From positions 1 through 59,918 of IMG/VR virus record IMGVR_UViG_3300010885_019846: 59,918 nucleotides of DNA; one strand, given 5' to 3'. The first letter of the stretch is position 1. Every line of letters begins with the position of its first letter. The translations under genes were made by a program, and so were the position numbers. Positions 7,661 through 37,799 of the stretch are shown one piece after another. Under the pieces are notes generated by a model, which was not told the origin of the DNA, did not search any database, and saw nothing but the letters and a program-made list of their open reading frames with translations. The stretch is from a virus.

Positions 7661-8872
7661 TCACCCCTCGCCCTCATTGACGATAGCATCGGTTGCAAAC
7701 TTGAGATTCGCCTCAATCCGCTCCCGCTGATCCGCAGGAAACTTATTTTCGTTTAGGAGTTGAATGCTGGCGGTACGGGACTCTCTGTAGTGACCCGTCC
7801 AGAAGGCATGGATAGCAAACTCATCCAAGATCGCCCACTCATAGATGCCCTGACCCACGAAGAGCGCACCCTCGGGATAACGAATCTTAAGAGCCTGTTT
7901 TCCAAAGCGGTAACCCTGATCAAACCGCGAGAATGCACGGCAGAGGCGGGCAGCAGCCCACAGACTCTCTGCTCTCCACGGAGCGACCTGATACGCCTTG
8001 AAGTAGATCTGAATGATGTTGTCAACGGGCTTCTCCAGAATCTCCATGATTCGACCCGCCTGATAGAGGCTGTAGAAGACCTCCTCGTTCCAACCGCCAA
8101 GATCAGCCCGCTTGAGATACGCCTGAAGGGCGGGTTCCCATTGGTTCGAATCGCGGTAGGACTGTGCGAGATAGAAGTGGTAGCGATTGAAGTCTTTCTC
8201 GTCAACCGTGCCCGATGCAAGAGCCTCCTCAAATCTGACCGCATCCTTCTTGTACTTCTCGGGATCCGACGAACGGGCACCATCCTGAATCGGGGTGTTC
8301 ATGAACCCACGCGCAAAGTCACGGGTGCCGATTGGCTCCTTACAGTCCACATACTCATGGAGAACCCCACGATAATAGAAGGGCTTCTTGTTGCTCGTCA
8401 TCTGCGGACGGTGATACCGCGTCTGACCGAACTGTGCAAAGATGTTGTAGAGATCGGCGGTCAGGTTATCCTTGAACTTGACGGGATCGAAACCTGGCTC
8501 AAATACGAGGATCTCGTCTGCGTCAATCATGAAAGCATAATCGGTATCGGTCTTCTGTGCGAGTTCAAGAGCCTCGCTGCGGTTGTGACCGAAGTCCTTC
8601 CACGGACGCTCAAAGAGTTCGCCAGGAATGCCGTTGCGGTCAAAGAAATCCTTGATCTTCTGCTGTGTACCGTCAGTCGAACCCGTGTCCACCACGACCC
8701 AACGATCAATGATGGGAAGAACAGACGAGAGGCAACGCTCGATGACATGCGACTCGTTCTTCACGATCATGCATAGGGTGATCGTCTTGGTTTTGTTTGG
8801 GGCAGCGACCGTATTTGTGGTGCTTGCTGCGGGGGCGACAACGGGCTTTTCAACTGTCAGGGTCTGGCTCAT
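7661..8872 (-). CDS. Family 2 glycosyltransferase with TPR-like C-terminus
   Basis: Predicted to transfer a sugar from a nucleotide-sugar. The GT-A domain shows ITLCMIVKNESHVIERCLSS and WVVVDTGSTDGTQQ (nucleotide binding) and AFMIDADEIL (DxD-type metal site). The C-terminal half is helical and repeated (NRYHFYLAQSYRDSNQWEPA, then LYQAGRIMEIL), like TPR-containing GT2 enzymes of the SunS type. I chose the ATG at 8872, which has GGAG 6 bases upstream, over an ATG at 8884 with no ribosome site; this gives 403 residues. It sits alone between two tail-fibre genes with its own late promoter, so it may glycosylate virion fibres. The acceptor is not known. Confidence 0.88.
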   Translation of the reverse strand: MSQTLTVEKPVVAPAASTTNTVAAPNKTKTITLCMIVKNESHVIERCLSSVLPIIDRWVVVDTGSTDGTQQKIKDFFDRNGIPGELFERPWKDFGHNRSEALELAQKTDTDYAFMIDADEILVFEPGFDPVKFKDNLTADLYNIFAQFGQTRYHRPQMTSNKKPFYYRGVLHEYVDCKEPIGTRDFARGFMNTPIQDGARSSDPEKYKKDAVRFEEALASGTVDEKDFNRYHFYLAQSYRDSNQWEPALQAYLKRADLGGWNEEVFYSLYQAGRIMEILEKPVDNIIQIYFKAYQVAPWRAESLWAAARLCRAFSRFDQGYRFGKQALKIRYPEGALFVGQGIYEWAILDEFAIHAFWTGHYRESRTASIQLLNENKFPADQRERIEANLKFATDAIVNEGEG

Positions 8873-8904
8873 ATCAATCTCCATGATAAAGAGGTTGTGT
8901 CAGG

Positions 8905-12653: not shown

Positions 12654-12860
12654 TCACCGTTTCTCTATAAGTTTCGATACAAGTTCCTTCAGATCGGAGA
12701 CCTCTTGCTCCAGCCTATTTATCCGATCCCTCTGCGCTTTCTGCTCTTGCTTTTTGCGCTCATATGCCATAACCGCATCTCTGTCAGTTGAGAGCAAGGC
12801 ACCTGTTTTGGTGTCTCGCACCATGCTCTCATTCTTGACACGAATGCGGTTGGGCATCAT
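12654..12860 (-). CDS. Small coiled-coil protein (68 aa)
   Basis: Conserved small protein type in T4-like cyanophages, function unknown. The N-terminal half, RIRVKNESMVRDTKTGALLS followed by TDRDAVMAY, is a compact conserved motif. The C-terminal half (residues 37-68, QKAQRDRINRLEQEVSDLKE and so on) is a clear heptad coiled coil of about four heptads. The ATG overlaps the stop of the preceding giant gene. A chaperone or oligomerisation role for the neighbouring fibre is possible but unproven. Confidence 0.75.
   Translation of the reverse strand: MMPNRIRVKNESMVRDTKTGALLSTDRDAVMAYERKKQEQKAQRDRINRLEQEVSDLKELVSKLIEKR
12716..12722 (-). promoter_or_regulatory. Candidate late promoter ATAAATA before the long fibre
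   Basis: GGATAAATAGG on the minus strand inside the coiled-coil gene, about 70 bp upstream of the 1121-residue fibre ATG. It matches the last seven bases of TATAAATA. Being inside a coding region, it is less certain than the intergenic copies. Confidence 0.45.
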
Positions 12861-15800
12861 GTGGCAATGATCCTCAGATTCTTGAGGTGTGGTACCGCCT
12901 CACCTGTCGGGCTTCCAAACATGACGATCTTGACCGAGAAGGTCTTGAACTTGGTAAGGGCGGTGTACCCAATGTTTGTGAATGAAACCTCACGATAGTC
13001 TGTATCCGAGGAGGACACGCCTGAGTCGCTTGTGGTCAACTCGACATAATCTGTGTTTTCAAAGTCAACCTCACCGACAGGAATCGGACGAATGAACACC
13101 TTTACTGAGGACGCAATACTGCTGTTCTTCTTTGGGTTGCACAGCGACATGGCAACCGTCAGATTTTCTGCCTCCATGCCCTCATCAAGCGTCACCTTCT
13201 TGGTGATGTACCGTGCAACGGTCTTGTAATTGGAACCCGAGTTGGTTGGATCCAATTCGCCGTTGTATTGCGAATCGCCCCGCGTTGTTATGGTATTGTT
13301 GTTGATGGTATTGGATACTGTGACAAGGCTTGACTTCTCCAAGTCAAAGACAGGCGACACCATTCCGTCTGTGCTTGAACTCATCGTGACATCAACCGAT
13401 GCTACGCCGCCCTGAGAGGTTCCCGATGTGATCAGGTGGTATCCAGTTGCGGGCACAATGTTCTTGTTCGGCAAGAACTGCGTGTAGTTCGTGACGCTTG
13501 GGCTGCTCTGTACGATGGAAGAATATGAAATTGCAGAGCCTTCTGGTGCAATGTCCACGGCATTGAGTCGCATCTCGTTGATGTAGAACTGTGTGTCACC
13601 ACTTCCACTACCGTTCACGAAACGAATGCTTCCCGTGCTGCTGAAGTGACAGAGATGCAGACGGAACGCCAAGGTCTCGTTGTCGTTCTTCACCATTTTG
13701 CCCGTATTCTGAGCCTTGAAGATCGACCGCATCATCGGCTGCTTTGTGATGTTGTACTTCGGATCCTGCTCATTCGCAAGCAACACGCTGCTGCCAACCG
13801 ATCCCGAGAATAGAGAGTATTCCGAGGAGTTGGTCAGGATACTGATTGCATATTCCTGACCAGGCAACAGATACACGGGGCTGCTAAAGGCGAAGTTCGT
13901 TTGATTGGAACCGCCCGATGTGATCAGATCGCCTGTGCTGATGCTGTCCGAATACAGCGTTGAAGATGCAAAGGGCAGAACCTTCGATGGGTGGGGATAC
14001 CCCGCCATCGTTGGACGAATCTGTACGGTGACAGGAATCGTCGTTAGGCTGTCCTTTGTGTTGAAGTATAGATCGACAGCCTTGACGAAGATACCGCTTG
14101 GGTACTTGGTGGGATCAACATAAAAGGTCTGCGAAACTGGCTCTGTATAGCCACGAATCTCCCCCGCGGCCGTCAAGATCTCAGAAAGGTTTGAAACAAC
14201 CTTGGAGGATTTGACAGATTTGCGACGAGTCTCTGGCAAACGGGTTGCGAGATGCCCATCTTCCGACAGCGAATTATATGTGCCTTCGACCGCATAGACT
14301 GCTTCCGCCGACATCGTCCATGTGCTTGGATCATCGATGTTGGTGCTGTCAATGATACGGATCACATGGCGACCCACAAGGAAGTTCTGCGCGACATAGT
14401 TGTTGTTCACCAAGTTGAAGGAGTAGTCGGTAGCGACCTCTCCCTTGCTGCTGGTCTTCTGTCCGTTGTATGCCGTGCAGTACGGGGTCACATTGACATC
14501 ATCACAGAACACAAAGAAGGTTGTATTGGGCTTGAGACCCTTGGCAGAGATGGAGATTGTCTGTGCGCGGGCAACAGGAAGCACATCACGGGCGATGGTC
14601 TTGTTATTGACCGTCTTCTTCATCGTCTCGGGTGCCACCGATGAATTGATTGCGTTCAGCGATACGCCTTCCGACTTCGCAGACAGCAACTTGTTCCGCA
14701 CCAAGTTGGGGCGGGTGTTCTTTGCATTCTGATTGTCCTTGCCGAACCAAATGGCTTCCCAATCGTTGTAGCGTGTACCGAAGCCGTAGTTGCTGTTCTG
14801 CTGCCAGTTGTCATTCTCACCCTCGACATTGACGATGACCTTTGGCTGCTTAGTCGTGTCGAACCATGTATCGGTAGCGGGGCTGATAGACATGCTACCC
14901 AAGTAGTTGATGATATTGAACGGATTGATTGTCACCGATCCGCTTGCAAGCAGATTTGAAATATCCGCCGATGTCGTATAGGACAGCGTATACAGTTTAT
15001 CAGCGGTAGCACCAGACACATTGGTAATGTTTGTGGCTCCAGTCAACTTATACGAACGAGTAGTGAAGGGAGGACGAACCTCGTTGTTCTCATAATCGAC
15101 ACTTGCGGCAAACAGCGTATCTGTATTGTCTGCGACTGCGTGACCCTTGAACTGATCGACAAGGATACCGCGCTTGGGCATCTCCGTGTCGTTTGTATCA
15201 AGGATGCTCTTCGCCTTGGCTTCTTGCTCAAGAAGATTCAGCGTGGTGTAGTACTCAACAGCCTCGATGCGCTTCTCAAGGTCACCGATGTCGCGCATTG
15301 TATAACGCTTGTTTTCGACATAACGAATAGAAGCATCATCGCTGTTGAGTGTGTACGGATTGACCCTCACCGTATAGAGAGTCATTGCATTTGGATCGTC
15401 TACGGGGATATCCGCATTTACAGACGGTATACCCGAAATGACCGAGAACTTGCGATCACGGGTCAGAACGATCTTGTCGGTTCTTGGCAGGAAATGGGTG
15501 TATGTGAAATCGTCGGAGTTTGCATTCGTATTTGTGGGTACCCATGTGGTGGTACTCATATCCCCACCGACACCCCTGTCGGGACGGAAATCAATGCAGT
15601 CACGCAGACCGTATGTCGTTGCCGTTGTTTTGCTTGTGTACGAGGGAATGTTTTCGTAGTCGGGGTACGATTGTGCCGTGTACGGGCCGAGTCCTGCGCT
15701 GTGGCTGTAGTATTTGAATGTTGCGGTGTATGGGCCTGTGATACCCGTGACACCTGGGTTCAGCGTCAACCGAGACCAATCATAGTGGGCATCGCGCTGA

Positions 15801-17812
15801 CCCGAGTCAAACGAGAAGTATGGAAGCAAGTTGAACCCCGAACTTGCTCCGATGGTTCCAGTAAGAGACAGGACTTGCGTGACATCATTATAACCGTTGA
15901 AATACAGAGTGTCTGAAGTTGACCCCCTACCGTCTCCCGTGAGCGCACCAGCCCATTGACCCGTGAGAGATGTACTGACGGTATTCAGCGTCTTCGACCG
16001 TCTGAATGAAGTCATGGAAGTAGCGGTATTTGCGAACTCCTGCGTGGCGATCACCGTCAACTTCTTGCCCGCGCTTGTGCCAGTAACCGTGACTGACAAT
16101 TGATTTGCGCCCGACCCACGCGCTGCCGTGCCTCCAAGAACCTTGCCGTCATTGTCAAATACCACCACATCTGCATTAGGCAATGCTACTGTTGTGGCTG
16201 CGGGAATGGGGAACTGCATACCAACGGGATCATATGAGTTGATCGTGAAGGCATAAGTCGATGAGGAAGCAGTCTGTGTCGAGTACGAAACGATTGCGTA
16301 GTTGCCTGCCGTGAATGCCGTGACACCCGATCCTTCGGGAATCTGATACAGCAAAGATCCCTGATCTTGCAACTCAAGATTGGCACTCCCGCCCGTGATG
16401 CTGAACAGGTGAGAGGTCGTGCCAGTTTTGTTTGGCATGAACACGCGGGTGATGTTCGAGAATGCGCCACCCGTGAGGTTGATGTCATATAGCGACAGGT
16501 TGTATATCGGCGGGGAGTACGGCTCCGTCCAACGAATTCTTGCAGTACCGATTGCACTACAGGCTGCGCCGCTTGCTCCTGTGGATAGTACGACCTTTGG
16601 ATGGGTCGAAAGCGATGCGGTTGTACCGAATGAATCGGGGATTCCCGAGAAGGTGACCTTTGTGTAAGGCCCAACCGAGCGATTGAAATCTCGGGTAATT
16701 GTACGCTCATGGCTCGATCCACGCGCACATGGAATGTTCAACTTTGTCTTGCCCTGCGTCTCAAACTCGTATCCGAAGACATATGCCTTGCCAGGAGACA
16801 ACTCTGCTTTCAGGACAGTATTGCTTCCGCTAGCAGTTGGGCCTTTCAGAGTGAGTTCAAATGGGGTTACGGTATAGTTGCCCGATTCGTCATAGGTACG
16901 CCGTGCAAGGGTATCCTCAAGCATTGCGTAATCTGGATACTTTTCTACCTTGACAATGTCCCCATCAACCACGCGCATGAATTCAACGAAGCCTACCCGC
17001 GAGAAGTTGTCAACCGATTGCGTGTCGGATGCCGTGAATCCGCGCTGCGATGCAACAAGATCGATCACAAATCGATCAGAACCAGGTGCTGCATAGTTGT
17101 AGAATCCGAATGCAGGATCGTTCAGCGAGGTATCATCTGTAGCAGTAACGAATGACTTGTCTACCGAGAAACCAATCGATGTGGTTGGATTGTCGTAGAC
17201 GCGAACCTGACTCCCTGCGGCACCTGTGAGGTTGTATGCGCCGATGGACTGTGCCGTGTTGAGTACAAAGAACCCCTCGATGAATCGCACTCCGCGATCA
17301 ACCGATGCTACGATTGCATCACCAGTTGTGTTATATCCCGCTGGGCCTGTGACGGCAGCGGTAATACCAATACCATTTGCTGCGGTTGCAGCGAGAATAT
17401 CATTTGCAGCAAACGAACTCAACCCATCCATGTATTCAAAGAACAGGACAGGATACGGGTCTGTCGTATTTGCAAGACCACTTTCTGCGTGTACAACGCG
17501 GGCATTTGCCTTGCCCGAACTGCCCACGACTGTACCGATGAAGTCGCTTGGGCTTACGCCCGTGCCAAGACTAACCTTTGCATACTTAACACGATTTTCG
17601 CTGATCTGACCATCAAGGACAATGCTGCCCTCCTCAAAGATATGGGAGCCTAGTCGCTCAATTTGATTCTGAAGCAAGGTCTGAATCTGCGTCAGTTCTC
17701 TTGCCTGAACGCCATATCCTGGACGGAACATCAAACGAAGAAACTTCTTGTCCTCGCTGAAGTCATCGTAATAGGGGTCTACATTGAACAGGCTTGGGTC
17801 GTATGATGGCAT
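12857..17812 (-). CDS. Giant baseplate-periphery structural protein, DUF4815-type
   Basis: 1651 residues. The N-terminal region contains FRPGYGVQARELTQIQTLLQ near 28-47 and NQIERLGSHIFEEGSIV just after. This is the hallmark of the large DUF4815 virion protein of T4-like marine phages. The rest is beta-rich, with no transmembrane segment or enzyme motif seen, and a C-terminal jelly-roll-like segment (KVFIRPIPVGEVDFE, LTKFKTFSVKIVMFGSP). It lies where T4 has genes 9-12, directly after gp8, so it probably fills the gp9/gp10 role of linking fibres to the baseplate. That functional equation is inference. Confidence 0.8.
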   Translation of the reverse strand: MPSYDPSLFNVDPYYDDFSEDKKFLRLMFRPGYGVQARELTQIQTLLQNQIERLGSHIFEEGSIVLDGQISENRVKYAKVSLGTGVSPSDFIGTVVGSSGKANARVVHAESGLANTTDPYPVLFFEYMDGLSSFAANDILAATAANGIGITAAVTGPAGYNTTGDAIVASVDRGVRFIEGFFVLNTAQSIGAYNLTGAAGSQVRVYDNPTTSIGFSVDKSFVTATDDTSLNDPAFGFYNYAAPGSDRFVIDLVASQRGFTASDTQSVDNFSRVGFVEFMRVVDGDIVKVEKYPDYAMLEDTLARRTYDESGNYTVTPFELTLKGPTASGSNTVLKAELSPGKAYVFGYEFETQGKTKLNIPCARGSSHERTITRDFNRSVGPYTKVTFSGIPDSFGTTASLSTHPKVVLSTGASGAACSAIGTARIRWTEPYSPPIYNLSLYDINLTGGAFSNITRVFMPNKTGTTSHLFSITGGSANLELQDQGSLLYQIPEGSGVTAFTAGNYAIVSYSTQTASSSTYAFTINSYDPVGMQFPIPAATTVALPNADVVVFDNDGKVLGGTAARGSGANQLSVTVTGTSAGKKLTVIATQEFANTATSMTSFRRSKTLNTVSTSLTGQWAGALTGDGRGSTSDTLYFNGYNDVTQVLSLTGTIGASSGFNLLPYFSFDSGQRDAHYDWSRLTLNPGVTGITGPYTATFKYYSHSAGLGPYTAQSYPDYENIPSYTSKTTATTYGLRDCIDFRPDRGVGGDMSTTTWVPTNTNANSDDFTYTHFLPRTDKIVLTRDRKFSVISGIPSVNADIPVDDPNAMTLYTVRVNPYTLNSDDASIRYVENKRYTMRDIGDLEKRIEAVEYYTTLNLLEQEAKAKSILDTNDTEMPKRGILVDQFKGHAVADNTDTLFAASVDYENNEVRPPFTTRSYKLTGATNITNVSGATADKLYTLSYTTSADISNLLASGSVTINPFNIINYLGSMSISPATDTWFDTTKQPKVIVNVEGENDNWQQNSNYGFGTRYNDWEAIWFGKDNQNAKNTRPNLVRNKLLSAKSEGVSLNAINSSVAPETMKKTVNNKTIARDVLPVARAQTISISAKGLKPNTTFFVFCDDVNVTPYCTAYNGQKTSSKGEVATDYSFNLVNNNYVAQNFLVGRHVIRIIDSTNIDDPSTWTMSAEAVYAVEGTYNSLSEDGHLATRLPETRRKSVKSSKVVSNLSEILTAAGEIRGYTEPVSQTFYVDPTKYPSGIFVKAVDLYFNTKDSLTTIPVTVQIRPTMAGYPHPSKVLPFASSTLYSDSISTGDLITSGGSNQTNFAFSSPVYLLPGQEYAISILTNSSEYSLFSGSVGSSVLLANEQDPKYNITKQPMMRSIFKAQNTGKMVKNDNETLAFRLHLCHFSSTGSIRFVNGSGSGDTQFYINEMRLNAVDIAPEGSAISYSSIVQSSPSVTNYTQFLPNKNIVPATGYHLITSGTSQGGVASVDVTMSSSTDGMVSPVFDLEKSSLVTVSNTINNNTITTRGDSQYNGELDPTNSGSNYKTVARYITKKVTLDEGMEAENLTVAMSLCNPKKNSSIASSVKVFIRPIPVGEVDFENTDYVELTTSDSGVSSSDTDYREVSFTNIGYTALTKFKTFSVKIVMFGSPTGEAVPHLKNLRIIAT

Positions 17813-33091: not shown

Positions 33092-34108
33092 ATGGATCCA
33101 CGCCAAAACAACCGAGACCCCTCAAACGCTGACCCCTCGTTCATCGACTCCGTGTACGGCCGTGCCCGCGAGACGGGATGGGCTGCGGGCAATCGATGGC
33201 TGTTCATGCTGTTTCCAAACAGACAGGTGCAAAAAGGAATTGGAATGCGTTTCGTGGAAGATGTTGCTCGTCTTGCCACCACATGCAAATCCGTGGTTCT
33301 GAACGAACAGACCTGGTACAGCACCGAACAAAGTTATCTGAATGCTGGGCCAAATCGGATATTCCCATACAAGCGCAATACCAACAATGGCTCGGGCTTC
33401 AAGGTGCAGTTCAATGTCGGTACTGATATGTTTGAGAAGGAGTTCTTTGAGTCGTGGCTTCGATACATTCAGAATCCGATCACCCGCCAATGGCGTTTCT
33501 ACGATGACTATGCCAAGGGAAGTGAGATTTATCTCATGCTGCTTCCCAACCATGTTCAGAACTTTTCAAGCGCGATCAATGCCATGTACAAGGGCAACAT
33601 CATCGGCTATAGGTTCACCGAAGTCTACCCCTTCTCTATGAACATCAACGGTGGATCCCTGAACTACACCAATGTAACAGACCCGCTTTTCTCTGATATT
33701 GGATTCATGTACCACGACATGGTTCCCCTACAGAACTTCAGACTACAGTACGACAATTCAATCCCCATGGTCACCGATACTGGATTCCCCGTTATCGAAA
33801 ATGACCGCTACAGCGCAATACTTGCTGCTAGCCAACAGGGCTTGGACAAAGCAGTCAATGGCTTCACAATTGGTACACAGCGGGCAAGAAACCAATTCGA
33901 AAACAAGCAGCAAGAGCAAAGAAGCATCTTGCAGTCATATGTCAAGCAACTAGAGGAATACAAGGCAGGAGACATCCCACGGGCTGTCGATGGCAGAGTA
34001 GTTTACTCCACCCCACGCCAAGGAGGACTCGATCTGGGTCTTACCCTGCTGTCACAGACACAGGGATTCTTTGGTGCGGGATTCTTTGGAAACGGATTCA
34101 ACCCCTAA
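33092..34108 (+). CDS. 54: Tail-tube initiator gp54
   Basis: Baseplate protein that with gp48 forms the first rings on which the tail tube polymerises. It has 338 residues (T4: 320). The tube-like fold shows GFKVQFNVGTDMFEKEFFES near 108-127, QWRFYDDYAKGSEIYLMLLP near 136-155, and IIGYRFTEVYPFSMNINGGS with LNYTN near 170-195, as in gp54 and the gp19 tube protein. The C-terminus is glycine and phenylalanine rich (GFFGAGFFGNGF). It lies between the 196-residue protein and gp26. Confidence 0.88.
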   Translation: MDPRQNNRDPSNADPSFIDSVYGRARETGWAAGNRWLFMLFPNRQVQKGIGMRFVEDVARLATTCKSVVLNEQTWYSTEQSYLNAGPNRIFPYKRNTNNGSGFKVQFNVGTDMFEKEFFESWLRYIQNPITRQWRFYDDYAKGSEIYLMLLPNHVQNFSSAINAMYKGNIIGYRFTEVYPFSMNINGGSLNYTNVTDPLFSDIGFMYHDMVPLQNFRLQYDNSIPMVTDTGFPVIENDRYSAILAASQQGLDKAVNGFTIGTQRARNQFENKQQEQRSILQSYVKQLEEYKAGDIPRAVDGRVVYSTPRQGGLDLGLTLLSQTQGFFGAGFFGNGFNP

Positions 34109-34130: not shown

Positions 34131-34841
34131 ATGTCACTATCAGGAATCATCGCATCAGTACCCAAGCATCAGGTAGTCCTGCCCGTCAGCGGTAAGAAGG
34201 TCGATTACCGCCCATTTGTGGTCAAAGAGGAGAAGATCCTCCTCATGGCTTCCGAGACCAAGGATGAGAAGACAATCACCAGCGCGGTGCGCGAGGTGGT
34301 TTCTGCATGCACATTGGGAACCGTAGATGTATTCAAGTTACCCATCGTAGACATGGAATACCTGTTCCTGCAACTCCGCAGTCACTCGGTAGGCGAGACG
34401 GTCAAGCCAAACATCAAATGCAGTAAGTGTGAGATACCCAACGAGTGTGAGGTGAGCATCAAGGAGATTCAGCCAATCAACGACCCAAATCACAAGAAGG
34501 TGATTCCGTTGATCGGTGATATCAGCGTAGTAATGCGATATCCAACCGTGGATGACATGCGGGCGATTGATGACAATATTACCGATGTGGAAAAGGCACT
34601 CGTTCTACTGACCAAGTCCATCGACAAGGTATATCAGGGCGAGACGGTCTACAACGCATCGGAGATGGACGAAAAGGAAGTCAAGGACTTCATCGAACAG
34701 ATGACGCAAGATCAGTTCAAGCGCATCTTCAATTTCATCGAAACCATGCCACGGCTAGAAAAGCACATCAAGTTCAAGTGCAAGTCGTGCGGTCAAGACA
34801 ACGATATCGTATTGAAAGGACTCACTAGTTTTTTCTCCTAG
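34131..34841 (+). CDS. 26: Baseplate hub protein gp26 with zinc-binding cysteines
   Basis: Member of the T4 baseplate gp26 family (PF12322 type), 236 residues (T4: 208). The features are VVLPVSGKKVDYRPFVVKEE near 15-34, DMEYLFLQLRSHSVGETV near 73-90, then two CxxC pairs, KCSKCEIPNE near 95 and FKCKSCGQDN near 219, that should bind zinc. A GGAG ribosome site lies 7 bases before the ATG. The last codons contain a T TTT TTC slippery heptamer, and the -1 frame continues into gp51, so a longer gp26-gp51 fusion (34131-35029) is predicted. The arrangement matches tail assembly chaperones of other tailed phages. Confidence 0.88.
   Translation: MSLSGIIASVPKHQVVLPVSGKKVDYRPFVVKEEKILLMASETKDEKTITSAVREVVSACTLGTVDVFKLPIVDMEYLFLQLRSHSVGETVKPNIKCSKCEIPNECEVSIKEIQPINDPNHKKVIPLIGDISVVMRYPTVDDMRAIDDNITDVEKALVLLTKSIDKVYQGETVYNASEMDEKEVKDFIEQMTQDQFKRIFNFIETMPRLEKHIKFKCKSCGQDNDIVLKGLTSFFS
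34829..34835 (+). promoter_or_regulatory. Predicted -1 ribosomal frameshift site T TTT TTC
   Basis: Canonical X XXY YYZ slippery heptamer in the gp26 frame (codons agT TTT TTC TCC TAG). The zero-frame stop is two codons later. After a -1 slip, reading continues without a stop (LLASTHDNLM) into gp51 to the stop at 35029. Confidence 0.7.
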
Positions 34842-34861
34842 CCTCCACCCATGACAACCTC

Positions 34862-35029
34862 ATGAATATGCTCTCGGTCAACTTCGCCATGATGCAGAAT
34901 TTTCAGTATACGCTTGCCGACCTTGAGAACATGATGCCGTGGGAACGGAGGGTCTACATTGATTTGCTGATGCAGCACCTGAAGGAGGAGAAAGAACGAA
35001 TGGAGGCAATGAAGAACGACAGGAGATAA
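34862..35029 (+). CDS. 51: gp51-like tail/hub assembly protein, likely the frameshift extension of gp26
   Basis: 55 residues if begun at ATG 34862; there is no good ribosome site. It lies in exactly the -1 frame relative to gp26 and is open upstream to the slippery site. The sequence FQYTLADLENMMPWERRVYI near 14-33 followed by DLLMQHLKEEKERMEAMK is the short helical motif (PWER-x-x-Y) typical of gp51 and of the second tail-chaperone module in other phages. Its end is 16 bp before the tape-measure gene. It may be made both alone and as a gp26-51 fusion. Confidence 0.75.
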   Translation: MNMLSVNFAMMQNFQYTLADLENMMPWERRVYIDLLMQHLKEEKERMEAMKNDRR

Positions 35030-35045: not shown

Positions 35046-37799
35046 ATGGCAGCAGAAGGACTCAATCAACCAAGCGGAACGCCTCAGCCACCGATGAACT
35101 CGGATGGTATTGCATTGCCCAATCCTGCTCCAACACCACCAAGTAGCCTCGATACAAAAAATGCAAATGACGCACTCGACAAATTCTTCGTCGAGATGGA
35201 AGCCATCAAGAAGAGCATCGAGAAGACCACAAAGACACTTGAGACGCAGAAGGCACTTCAGGCAAAGGTCAATGATGCTTATGCCAAGCAGCAGAAGGCT
35301 GTATTGGAAACAGCCAAGCAACAGGATGATCTCAAGAAAGATACAGAGAAATACCGTGATGCAGAGGGCAAGTGGGCGAAGGGCACCGAGGCAATTCAGA
35401 CCAAGTATGAATCCGACTTGGCAAATCTGTCCGAATGCGTGAAGACCGCAGACGAAGAGTTCATGAAAGCAACAGAAGCCTTGGATGCAAATATCAAGGC
35501 TATGGGAGATGAGCGCGACGAGCGAATGACTTCCTTGATTGCGTTGCGCGATTTCAGACAGACGGTTAAAGAAGTCGATGCGGAAATGGCGGCAGGAATG
35601 GGGCAGGATCACTTTGCCGCCATTCAAATGGTGACGGATGCCAATAAGCAACAGGCTGAATCCTCTCAGCAAATCAGCAAAGAGTCGAAAGAGGCATTTG
35701 GTGAGATGGCAAAGGGTCTCAAAGAAGCAAATCTCCAAGATGCCGCAGATAGAGCAGCAGCAGCCTTTGAGAAAATGACCGAGACTGCAAAGAAAAATGC
35801 AGAAGAACTCAAGCAGGCTGCTGAAGAAGAGCAACAAGTACAAGACAAACTGAGTGAATTGAGGGATAGGAAGTCTACTCAGAAATTTACCGATCAACTA
35901 CAGGGTAGTGGCGGCATTGTCGGCTTGGGCGACATCAAGAAGGAAATGGAAGACATGGTTGGCTTGGAGGATGAGCGATTCAAGGCAATGAATCCCAAGG
36001 CAACCGAGGCACAGATCAAGGCAAACAGGGAAGAGTTCCTAATCAAGCAGAAGGACACTCTGACCACCATGGTCGAGATCAGGCAGAAGAAGGAACTTGA
36101 GAAGATACAGAAAGAGCGCATCGCTCAAATCATGAAGGAGAAGGGAGTATCTGCTGAATCGGCCAAGAGATTGGCGGGTGGCAACAAGGACTTCCAAAAA
36201 GAAGATGCCCTGACCATGAAGCGGCATCAGGAAACCCTTGATGCATTGCGAAACATGAACCAAGGTCAACTTGTCATGATTAATCGCATGGAAGAGCAGC
36301 AGATCAAGGATGCAGAGAAGGCGATTGAGCAGCAAAACATGGTGCCTGCATGGGCACAGAAATTCATCGACGGATTTCAAGAGTTCAGGGAAGGTCTAGG
36401 CGGCTGGTTCAAGAAGGATGATGGCTGGTTCAAGACAATCCTTCTCTTCTTGACGGTCGCTGTCGGTGCGGTGCTTGGCTACATTTGGACAAAGATACAG
36501 TTCATTGTCACGCTTCTTACCCATCTGCCATTCGGAATCGGCAGGGCTATCGGCAACATCTTTAGGAGTGCGGTAGGGGGAGTTGGCGGAATCTTCGGCA
36601 AGGTCGGAGAAGCGATGGGCCCATTCACAAGAGGACTCAAGGCAATTGGAGAACTGTTCCCATCCATATCTGGCGTACTTGGTCAGTTCGGCAAAGCGTT
36701 CTCATTTGGCTTCCGTATCGTCGGTAAGGTGTTCTTCTACCTGTCTCTTGCAATCGATGCGATCATGGGCGCATACAAGGGGTTCCAGAAGTTGGGCGAT
36801 ATCCGTGGCATGATCATCGGTGCTGTTGCACAGATCATCAGCGGATTGACATTCGGGTTGCTCGATTTCGAATCGATCTTTGACTTCCTCAACAATACAT
36901 TCGGGACAACAGTCAAGGGGTTTGTCGATGCAACTGTTGACTTGGTGAAGGGATTCTACAATCTAGCAATCAAACCATTTGTCACCGCCATCGGGAACAT
37001 TGTGAAGATATTCCGAGGCGGTGAGGGGATCTTCACCAAGATATTCAAGTCAATCTATGAGATGGTATTTGCAGGATTGAAGTATATGGTCGGGATGTTG
37101 ATCTTTCAGTTCGTCAAAATTCCCGTGTACATCATGAAAGCCATCTTCTATTACTTGAAGTTCTTCTACTATGACATTCCGAAGATGCTTGTAGATAGCA
37201 TCATGTGGCTGTGGAATTGGATCACTAGTGGCGATTGGCTAAGTGATCTTGCTAATTTCGGTGAGTGGCTTAACAACAAGTTCATGGAGTTCTTCAACTA
37301 CATACTCGACAGCCTTGCAGATGCATTGGGAGAGTTGCCCATCGTTGGCAGTTATATCAAGAGTGCCTTGGGTGGGGGAACTAAAGAGGATCCCCTAAAA
37401 GACGCAGTAGAAAAGACGGGCGAAGTCATAGAGGATGCCGAAGATGCATCGATGGCTCTTGCTCAAACGCAGCAGAATTCAGTTACCAAGGCAACAAGTG
37501 CGTTGTCCTCAAGCAACACTTCATCTGTTGTAATTGTTCCCACGGGTGGACGGGCGACTGAGTTTGCGTCCTCTGCACCATCGTACAGCGCATCCTCCGT
37601 AAACAAGGCAACCACAAGTGCATCCACAGCCACGATGAATGCTTCGAATCAGAGTAGCGGAACCGTGGCTATCAATGCACCCACCAACAACATGGCGGGG
37701 GGTGGCGGGGAAATGCCCATAATGATGAGTCCAACGAACAACAGGAACACGGAGCCAACTTTCCGTGCCCTGCTGTTTCAAGAGTGCCCTGCCCTATAA
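35046..37799 (+). CDS. 29: Tail tape-measure / hub protein gp29
   Basis: Sets tail length and is likely ejected at infection. It has 917 residues (T4 gp29: 590). Residues 1-40 are Pro/Ser/Thr-rich. Residues about 40-440 are almost continuous coiled coil (ETQKALQAKVNDAYAKQQKA, AAAFEKMTETAKKNAEELKQ). Several hydrophobic or transmembrane segments follow at about 458-760 (TILLFLTVAVGAVLGYIWTK; FSFGFRIVGKVFFYLSLAI; GLKYMVGMLIFQFV). The C-terminal 130 residues are Ser/Thr/Asn-rich. The layout of coiled coil followed by membrane segments and the place right after the gp26/gp51 frameshift pair identify it. A longer tail than that of T4 is expected. Confidence 0.85.
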   Translation: MAAEGLNQPSGTPQPPMNSDGIALPNPAPTPPSSLDTKNANDALDKFFVEMEAIKKSIEKTTKTLETQKALQAKVNDAYAKQQKAVLETAKQQDDLKKDTEKYRDAEGKWAKGTEAIQTKYESDLANLSECVKTADEEFMKATEALDANIKAMGDERDERMTSLIALRDFRQTVKEVDAEMAAGMGQDHFAAIQMVTDANKQQAESSQQISKESKEAFGEMAKGLKEANLQDAADRAAAAFEKMTETAKKNAEELKQAAEEEQQVQDKLSELRDRKSTQKFTDQLQGSGGIVGLGDIKKEMEDMVGLEDERFKAMNPKATEAQIKANREEFLIKQKDTLTTMVEIRQKKELEKIQKERIAQIMKEKGVSAESAKRLAGGNKDFQKEDALTMKRHQETLDALRNMNQGQLVMINRMEEQQIKDAEKAIEQQNMVPAWAQKFIDGFQEFREGLGGWFKKDDGWFKTILLFLTVAVGAVLGYIWTKIQFIVTLLTHLPFGIGRAIGNIFRSAVGGVGGIFGKVGEAMGPFTRGLKAIGELFPSISGVLGQFGKAFSFGFRIVGKVFFYLSLAIDAIMGAYKGFQKLGDIRGMIIGAVAQIISGLTFGLLDFESIFDFLNNTFGTTVKGFVDATVDLVKGFYNLAIKPFVTAIGNIVKIFRGGEGIFTKIFKSIYEMVFAGLKYMVGMLIFQFVKIPVYIMKAIFYYLKFFYYDIPKMLVDSIMWLWNWITSGDWLSDLANFGEWLNNKFMEFFNYILDSLADALGELPIVGSYIKSALGGGTKEDPLKDAVEKTGEVIEDAEDASMALAQTQQNSVTKATSALSSSNTSSVVIVPTGGRATEFASSAPSYSASSVNKATTSASTATMNASNQSSGTVAINAPTNNMAGGGGEMPIMMSPTNNRNTEPTFRALLFQECPAL

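Follow-up and report, generated by a model that had tools for sequence, protein, structure and literature searches.

Is gp51 of this phage made as a separate protein, or is it joined to gp26 by a −1 frameshift just before the tape measure gene? The question is raised by positions 34131-35029 of the window, by which we mean the whole 59,918-nt stretch of viral DNA (IMG/VR record IMGVR_UViG_3300010885_019846) that was analysed. The initial annotation had predicted a fusion of the two at this point and had likened it to the G/GT tail assembly chaperones of phage lambda. The features of the locus are listed below, each with its basis.

33092..34108, + strand: tail-tube-fold protein, gp54/gp19-like (phrog_3629 E=1e-5, phrog_45 E=6e-5)
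34131..34841, + strand: gp26, putative short chaperone TAC-N, 236 aa, two CxxC motifs (PF12322 E=5e-62; phrog_150 E=3e-62; AlphaFold2 pLDDT 88)
34815..34820, + strand: Shine-Dalgarno-like AAAGGA, candidate stimulator, modest here, 8 nt upstream of the heptamer (alignment; signal above the synonymous null over the whole set)
34829..34835, + strand: slippery heptamer T TTT TTC, P-site TTT, A-site TTC (sequence and conservation in relatives)
34829..35029, + strand: −1 frame (gp51), predicted C-terminal domain of the long chaperone TAC-NC (open frame; match to phrog_634, 'baseplate hub assembly catalyst', E=3e-20)
34839..34841, + strand: gp26 stop codon TAG, one codon past the heptamer
34850..34864, + strand: weak 5-bp stem CATGA/TCATG, not significant alone, at the site of a strong hairpin in many relatives
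35046..37799, + strand: probable tape measure protein of 917 aa (position; hydropathy; E=2e-4 to an annotated tape measure protein, a weak match)

Reading frames and proteins at the gp26-gp51 junction

Gene 26 (34131-34841) ends with GGA CTC ACT AGT TTT TTC TCC TAG, in which the heptamer has the phase xxT TTT TTC of the gp26 0-frame. The heptamer predicted for this end of the gene was thus found in phase, but it is separated from the stop by one codon (TCC) and not by two. On its upstream side the heptamer is abutted by a TAG of the gp51 frame (34826-34828). The −1 frame therefore opens exactly at the heptamer and is free of stops from there to 35029, as had been claimed, so that both frames are open together only at 34829-34841, the region of the heptamer and the gp26 stop. 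After a −1 slip, reading would pick up at 34835 (CTC CTA GCC ...).

The alternative is synthesis of gp51 as a protein in its own right, by re-initiation or from its own start after the gp26 stop, and it agrees with the public records. In those inspected no joined CDS was annotated, and gp51 was entered as a separate gene or missed. In the window, however, the first methionine codon of the gp51 frame (ATG 34862) lies approximately 20 nt past the gp26 stop, and no Shine-Dalgarno-like sequence was found ahead of it. Residues of the gp51 frame between the slip site and this methionine are conserved (e.g. H8), which also argues against a separate gp51.

The match of gp26 to PF12322 scored 209.8 bits, above the Pfam gathering cut-off of 24.5, and the CxxC cysteines of gp26 and the PWER-x-x-Y motif of gp51 are present as the initial annotation described them. 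The predicted gp26-gp51 fusion, of 299 aa, matches positions 10-282 of phrog_150 as a single stretch and scores 245 bits, as compared with 212 for gp26 alone. The AlphaFold2 model of gp26 (pLDDT 88, pTM 0.82) matched predicted gp26 proteins of many phages. The highest Foldseek probability among the PDB matches listed (0.41) was that of the HK97 TAC, 2ob9_A, at E=1.7, which is below significance; for the model, a likeness of fold to the HK97 TAC is suggestive only. A sequence search of solved structures returned nothing meaningful.

The tail-tube-fold gene upstream of gene 26 gives the locus the order tube-like – 26 – 51 – tape measure. The assignment of the next gene as the tape measure agrees with its position and with the character of its product, which carries four hydrophobic segments within residues 459-700, but the homology is weak (E=2e-4) and no clear sequence similarity to T4 gp29 was found. 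It is likely to be the tape measure gene, mostly from position. Elsewhere in the window, the baseplate cluster contains a gene for a 1651-aa protein (12857-17812, − strand) with strong matches to phrog_358 and phrog_877, both of unknown function, and a beta-1,4-glycosyltransferase-like gene (7661-8884, − strand; phrog_13126) lies amid tail-fibre-like genes. The T4-type late promoter ATAAATA did not occur above chance in the window.

Conservation of the heptamer and frame in relatives

A first scan of viral contigs with relatives of gp26 (34-73% identical) revealed an in-phase T TTT TTY in 80 of 80, and in 78 of these the −1 frame matched gp51. The second scan was profile-based and was joined by scans for relatives of Mendera and Aeh1; it yielded 83 distinct junctions, a small number of them on contigs that the first scan had also covered. 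T TTT TTN was present in 82 of the 83, and the gp51 profile matched no frame but −1. Only L202 departs from this: in this Menderavirus record the frame changes where gp26 ends, as compared with an otherwise near-identical relative, probably through a homopolymer indel in the sequence. The same layout occurs in 13 named phages, S-PM2, Syn1, S-CAM22, S-CRM01, P-RSM6, S-PRM1, Aeh1, Aeromonas 65, VH7D, Vibrio K567, Bakedbeans, Mendera and phiM7, which span Kyanoviridae, Straboviridae outgroups and other T4-like groups. A further scan of viral contigs, for relatives of the K567 gp26, found none.

Comparison of the junction across related T4-like phages, which the initial annotation had proposed as a check, therefore shows both heptamer and frame to be conserved. 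Homologues with gp51 in varying frames were not seen, the frame being −1 wherever the gp51 profile or tblastn finds gp51, and the heptamer was lacking only in Ackermannviridae, one Vibrio phage and the frame-changed Menderavirus record. Homopolymers are error-prone and L202 does show a frame change at this place, as would be expected if the break were a sequencing error in a gene that is really one continuous open reading frame. This explanation is refuted, its probability being close to nil: well over 100 contigs and finished genomes, differing in sequence, all break frame at this heptamer.

Kuttervirus (Ackermannviridae) and Vibrio phage K353 lack the heptamer but still have gp51 in the −1 frame. 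In L086 and L106-L120, which are Kuttervirus and its relatives within Ackermannviridae, a gp51-like C-domain follows gp26 in the −1 frame, with neither a ribosome-site-backed start nor T TTT TTY. The stretch GAR ATT TTC ATT TAA TTTTTGAAATTGATTTA is near-identical among them, although their proteins are only about 70% alike, and the sequence suggests that it may be a non-canonical slip site.

The relatives also bear on separate synthesis of gp51. A start with a Shine-Dalgarno-like match within the first 25 gp51 codons was found only in Mendera (TTG) and S-CRM01 (ATG at the stop) among the other distinct junctions tested, while L043, L057 and L047 (the last with a frame itself incomplete) have no start codon there at all. 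The claim that gp51 has no other good start is upheld: these junctions share no conserved start with a ribosome site. On the other side, S-CRM01, Mendera, K567 and VH7D have a TAATG or TGATG overlap of stop and start past the heptamer, and re-initiation may add to frameshifting in these phages. Overlap of the gp26 stop with a gp51-frame ATG just past the heptamer was seen at L089:3172-3185, L087:3195-3210, L090:3319-3335 and L097:2313-2330; both frameshifting and re-initiation are therefore possible there.

Codon usage at the Phe-Phe dipeptide and the separate gene 51 of T4

The heptamer might be a mere by-product of a conserved Phe-Phe dipeptide, carrying no signal. The dipeptide is indeed conserved here even in T4 gp26, which has GLKEFF. 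However, the codons chosen for it are not those expected of a by-product. Only one of the 37 FF dipeptides in the window's 39 long open reading frames is written T TTT TTY, and that one is the junction itself; in the relatives, FF is so written in 21 of 191 cases (11%) elsewhere, as compared with 48 of 48 at junctions. Conversely, the site reads T TTT TTA in L145, L156 and L191, so that the dipeptide becomes FL while the site stays slippery. Natural controls are provided by T4, Mosigvirus and Karamvirus, in which a full-length gene 51 stands on its own. In T4, JM10 and myPSH1140 the GLKEFF of gp26 is kept, with the FF codons TTC TTT or TTC TTC, which are non-slippery, and in two Acinetobacter phages with a separate gene 51 the FF of gp26 is lost. 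We consider the by-product explanation extremely unlikely.

T4 gp51 is a 249-aa protein encoded by one open reading frame, divergent from gene 26. It is colinear with the predicted fusion over its full length, the junction included (hhalign probability 98.6; E 6e-17 by HMM in a two-sequence search), and both T4 gp51 and the fusion span phrog_150 nearly end to end. This colinearity and the phrog_150 coverage support, at the level of sequence, a fused product. T4 makes the N+C form as one chain, which stands against a separate gp51 in the window phage and, with the missing starts described above, makes that reading very unlikely.

Candidate stimulators of the slip

Signals flanking the heptamer were sought by comparing 98 non-redundant junctions with a synonymous-codon null, the phylogeny of the relatives being left uncorrected throughout. 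An energy test was used in place of base-pair covariation because the register of the stem moves between lineages. In 42-nt segments starting 0-12 nt from the heptamer start, folding energy was below the synonymous expectation (mean z −0.75 to −1.1), as compared with a mean z of −0.17 (sd 0.15) in 42 other segments along the genes. Upstream, the Shine-Dalgarno-like stretch approximately 8-12 nt from the heptamer surpassed all others within the final 200 nt of gp26 over the 98 junctions, at −6.1 versus −4.6 kcal/mol for the null (Wilcoxon p 3e-9, relatedness ignored). The window's own elements are weaker: its AAAGGA scored a modest −4.6, and its downstream hairpin had a z of about 0 at offsets +6 to +18. 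Rfam contained no recoding element at the junction.

Shine-Dalgarno-like strength and hairpin strength showed a weak inverse relation (rho −0.22, p 0.03, relatedness ignored), which is only suggestive. We propose tentatively, giving it a little under an even chance, that two partly interchangeable stimulators, the upstream Shine-Dalgarno-like stretch and the downstream hairpin, are swapped between lineages and tune the TAC-N/TAC-NC ratio in T4-like phages, the slip having moved to the non-canonical A TTT TCA in Ackermannviridae and having been replaced by a separate full-length gene in Tevenvirinae.

These signals also bear on transcriptional slippage, in which the T run would give rise to mixed mRNAs that fuse the frames. 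Many relatives do have seven or more T at this place, but in the window and about half of the relatives the run stops at six, the next base being C or A, and a run of six is short for transcriptional slippage. The phase xxT TTT TTN is invariant, and the Shine-Dalgarno-like and hairpin signals exceed the coding expectation at the spacing of ribosomal frameshifting. Both observations argue against a transcriptional origin, which we regard as very unlikely. In favour of a transcriptional origin, E. coli genes have fewer U7 runs than expected, for which transcriptional slippage or indel mutation may be the reason (PMC4066793).

Proposed mechanism

The conserved heptamer and −1 frame, the non-slippery FF codons of the phages with a separate gene 51 and the colinearity of T4 gp51 with the whole fusion together argue for short and long tail assembly chaperones, TAC-N and TAC-NC. 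We conclude that gp26 very probably undergoes a −1 slip on T TTT TTC that yields both TAC-N and the gp26-gp51 fusion TAC-NC, and the lambda G/GT-type reading of the initial annotation is supported to that extent. Most ribosomes on gene 26 would halt at TAG 34839 and release the 236-aa TAC-N. A minority, with tRNA-Phe in both the P and the A site, would move back by one base on U UUU UUC, bypass the stop and translate the gp51 frame to 35029, giving the 299-aa TAC-NC. Slippage is probably aided by the upstream Shine-Dalgarno-like stretch and, in many relatives, by a hairpin just past the heptamer; this help is suggested by the statistics over the relatives and would be weak in the window phage. 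By analogy with lambda gpG and gpGT, many copies of TAC-N and few of TAC-NC would coat the tape measure protein, the gp51 domain would recruit the tail-tube protein, and both chaperones would depart before the tail is completed. If the fusion is made by such a slip, gp51 is not a separate protein in this phage, and in T4 this long form comes from a complete gene 51 that stands by itself.

A large comparative set with natural controls thus indicates that gene 51 of cyanophage-type T4-like phages would be the frameshift half of a tail chaperone and not a stand-alone gene. This fits the view that T4 gp51, the 'hub assembly catalyst', is the long chaperone. The junction set can be used for measuring how slip site, Shine-Dalgarno-like sequence and hairpin set the ratio.

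Comparison with known systems

Vladimirov and colleagues reportedly found frameshifting to be conserved in several T4-like groups, with separate genes 26 and 51 in T4's own group. T4 gp26 matches TAC-N and T4 gp51 matches the entire fusion, but the two T4 genes are separate and divergently oriented, with no slippery site. In lambda, the slippery heptamer is G GGA AAG, in place of the T TTT TTC found here; the gp26 of this phage is larger and has CxxC motifs, the tail is of the contractile T4 type, and gp26 and gp51 are likened to the lambda proteins by analogy. Lambda gpG and gpGT bind the tape measure protein, and the T domain recruits the tail subunit (PMC5009743).

The TACs of T4-like phages were assigned by Vladimirov, Gautam and Davidson (Virology 2022; cited in PMC10885494 and PMC12846349), and the gene pair of that work is the same as here, gp26 (TAC-N) and gp51 (TAC-C/NC). 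The citing passage of PMC12846349 also credits that study for poly-T sequences as −1 signals known from the TAC-N genes of T4-like phages. As the gp26-gp51 arrangement has been in the literature since 2022, it is less surprising than the initial annotation made it; the contig is an additional member, and the Shine-Dalgarno-like and hairpin stimulator analysis is that of the present work. The TAC locus of Vandenendeviridae and Andersonviridae, exemplified by phage Adele (PMC12846349), likewise has a −1 frameshift, with a conserved poly-T motif, ahead of the gene for the tape measure, but the motif is GTTTTT and the phage families are different ones.
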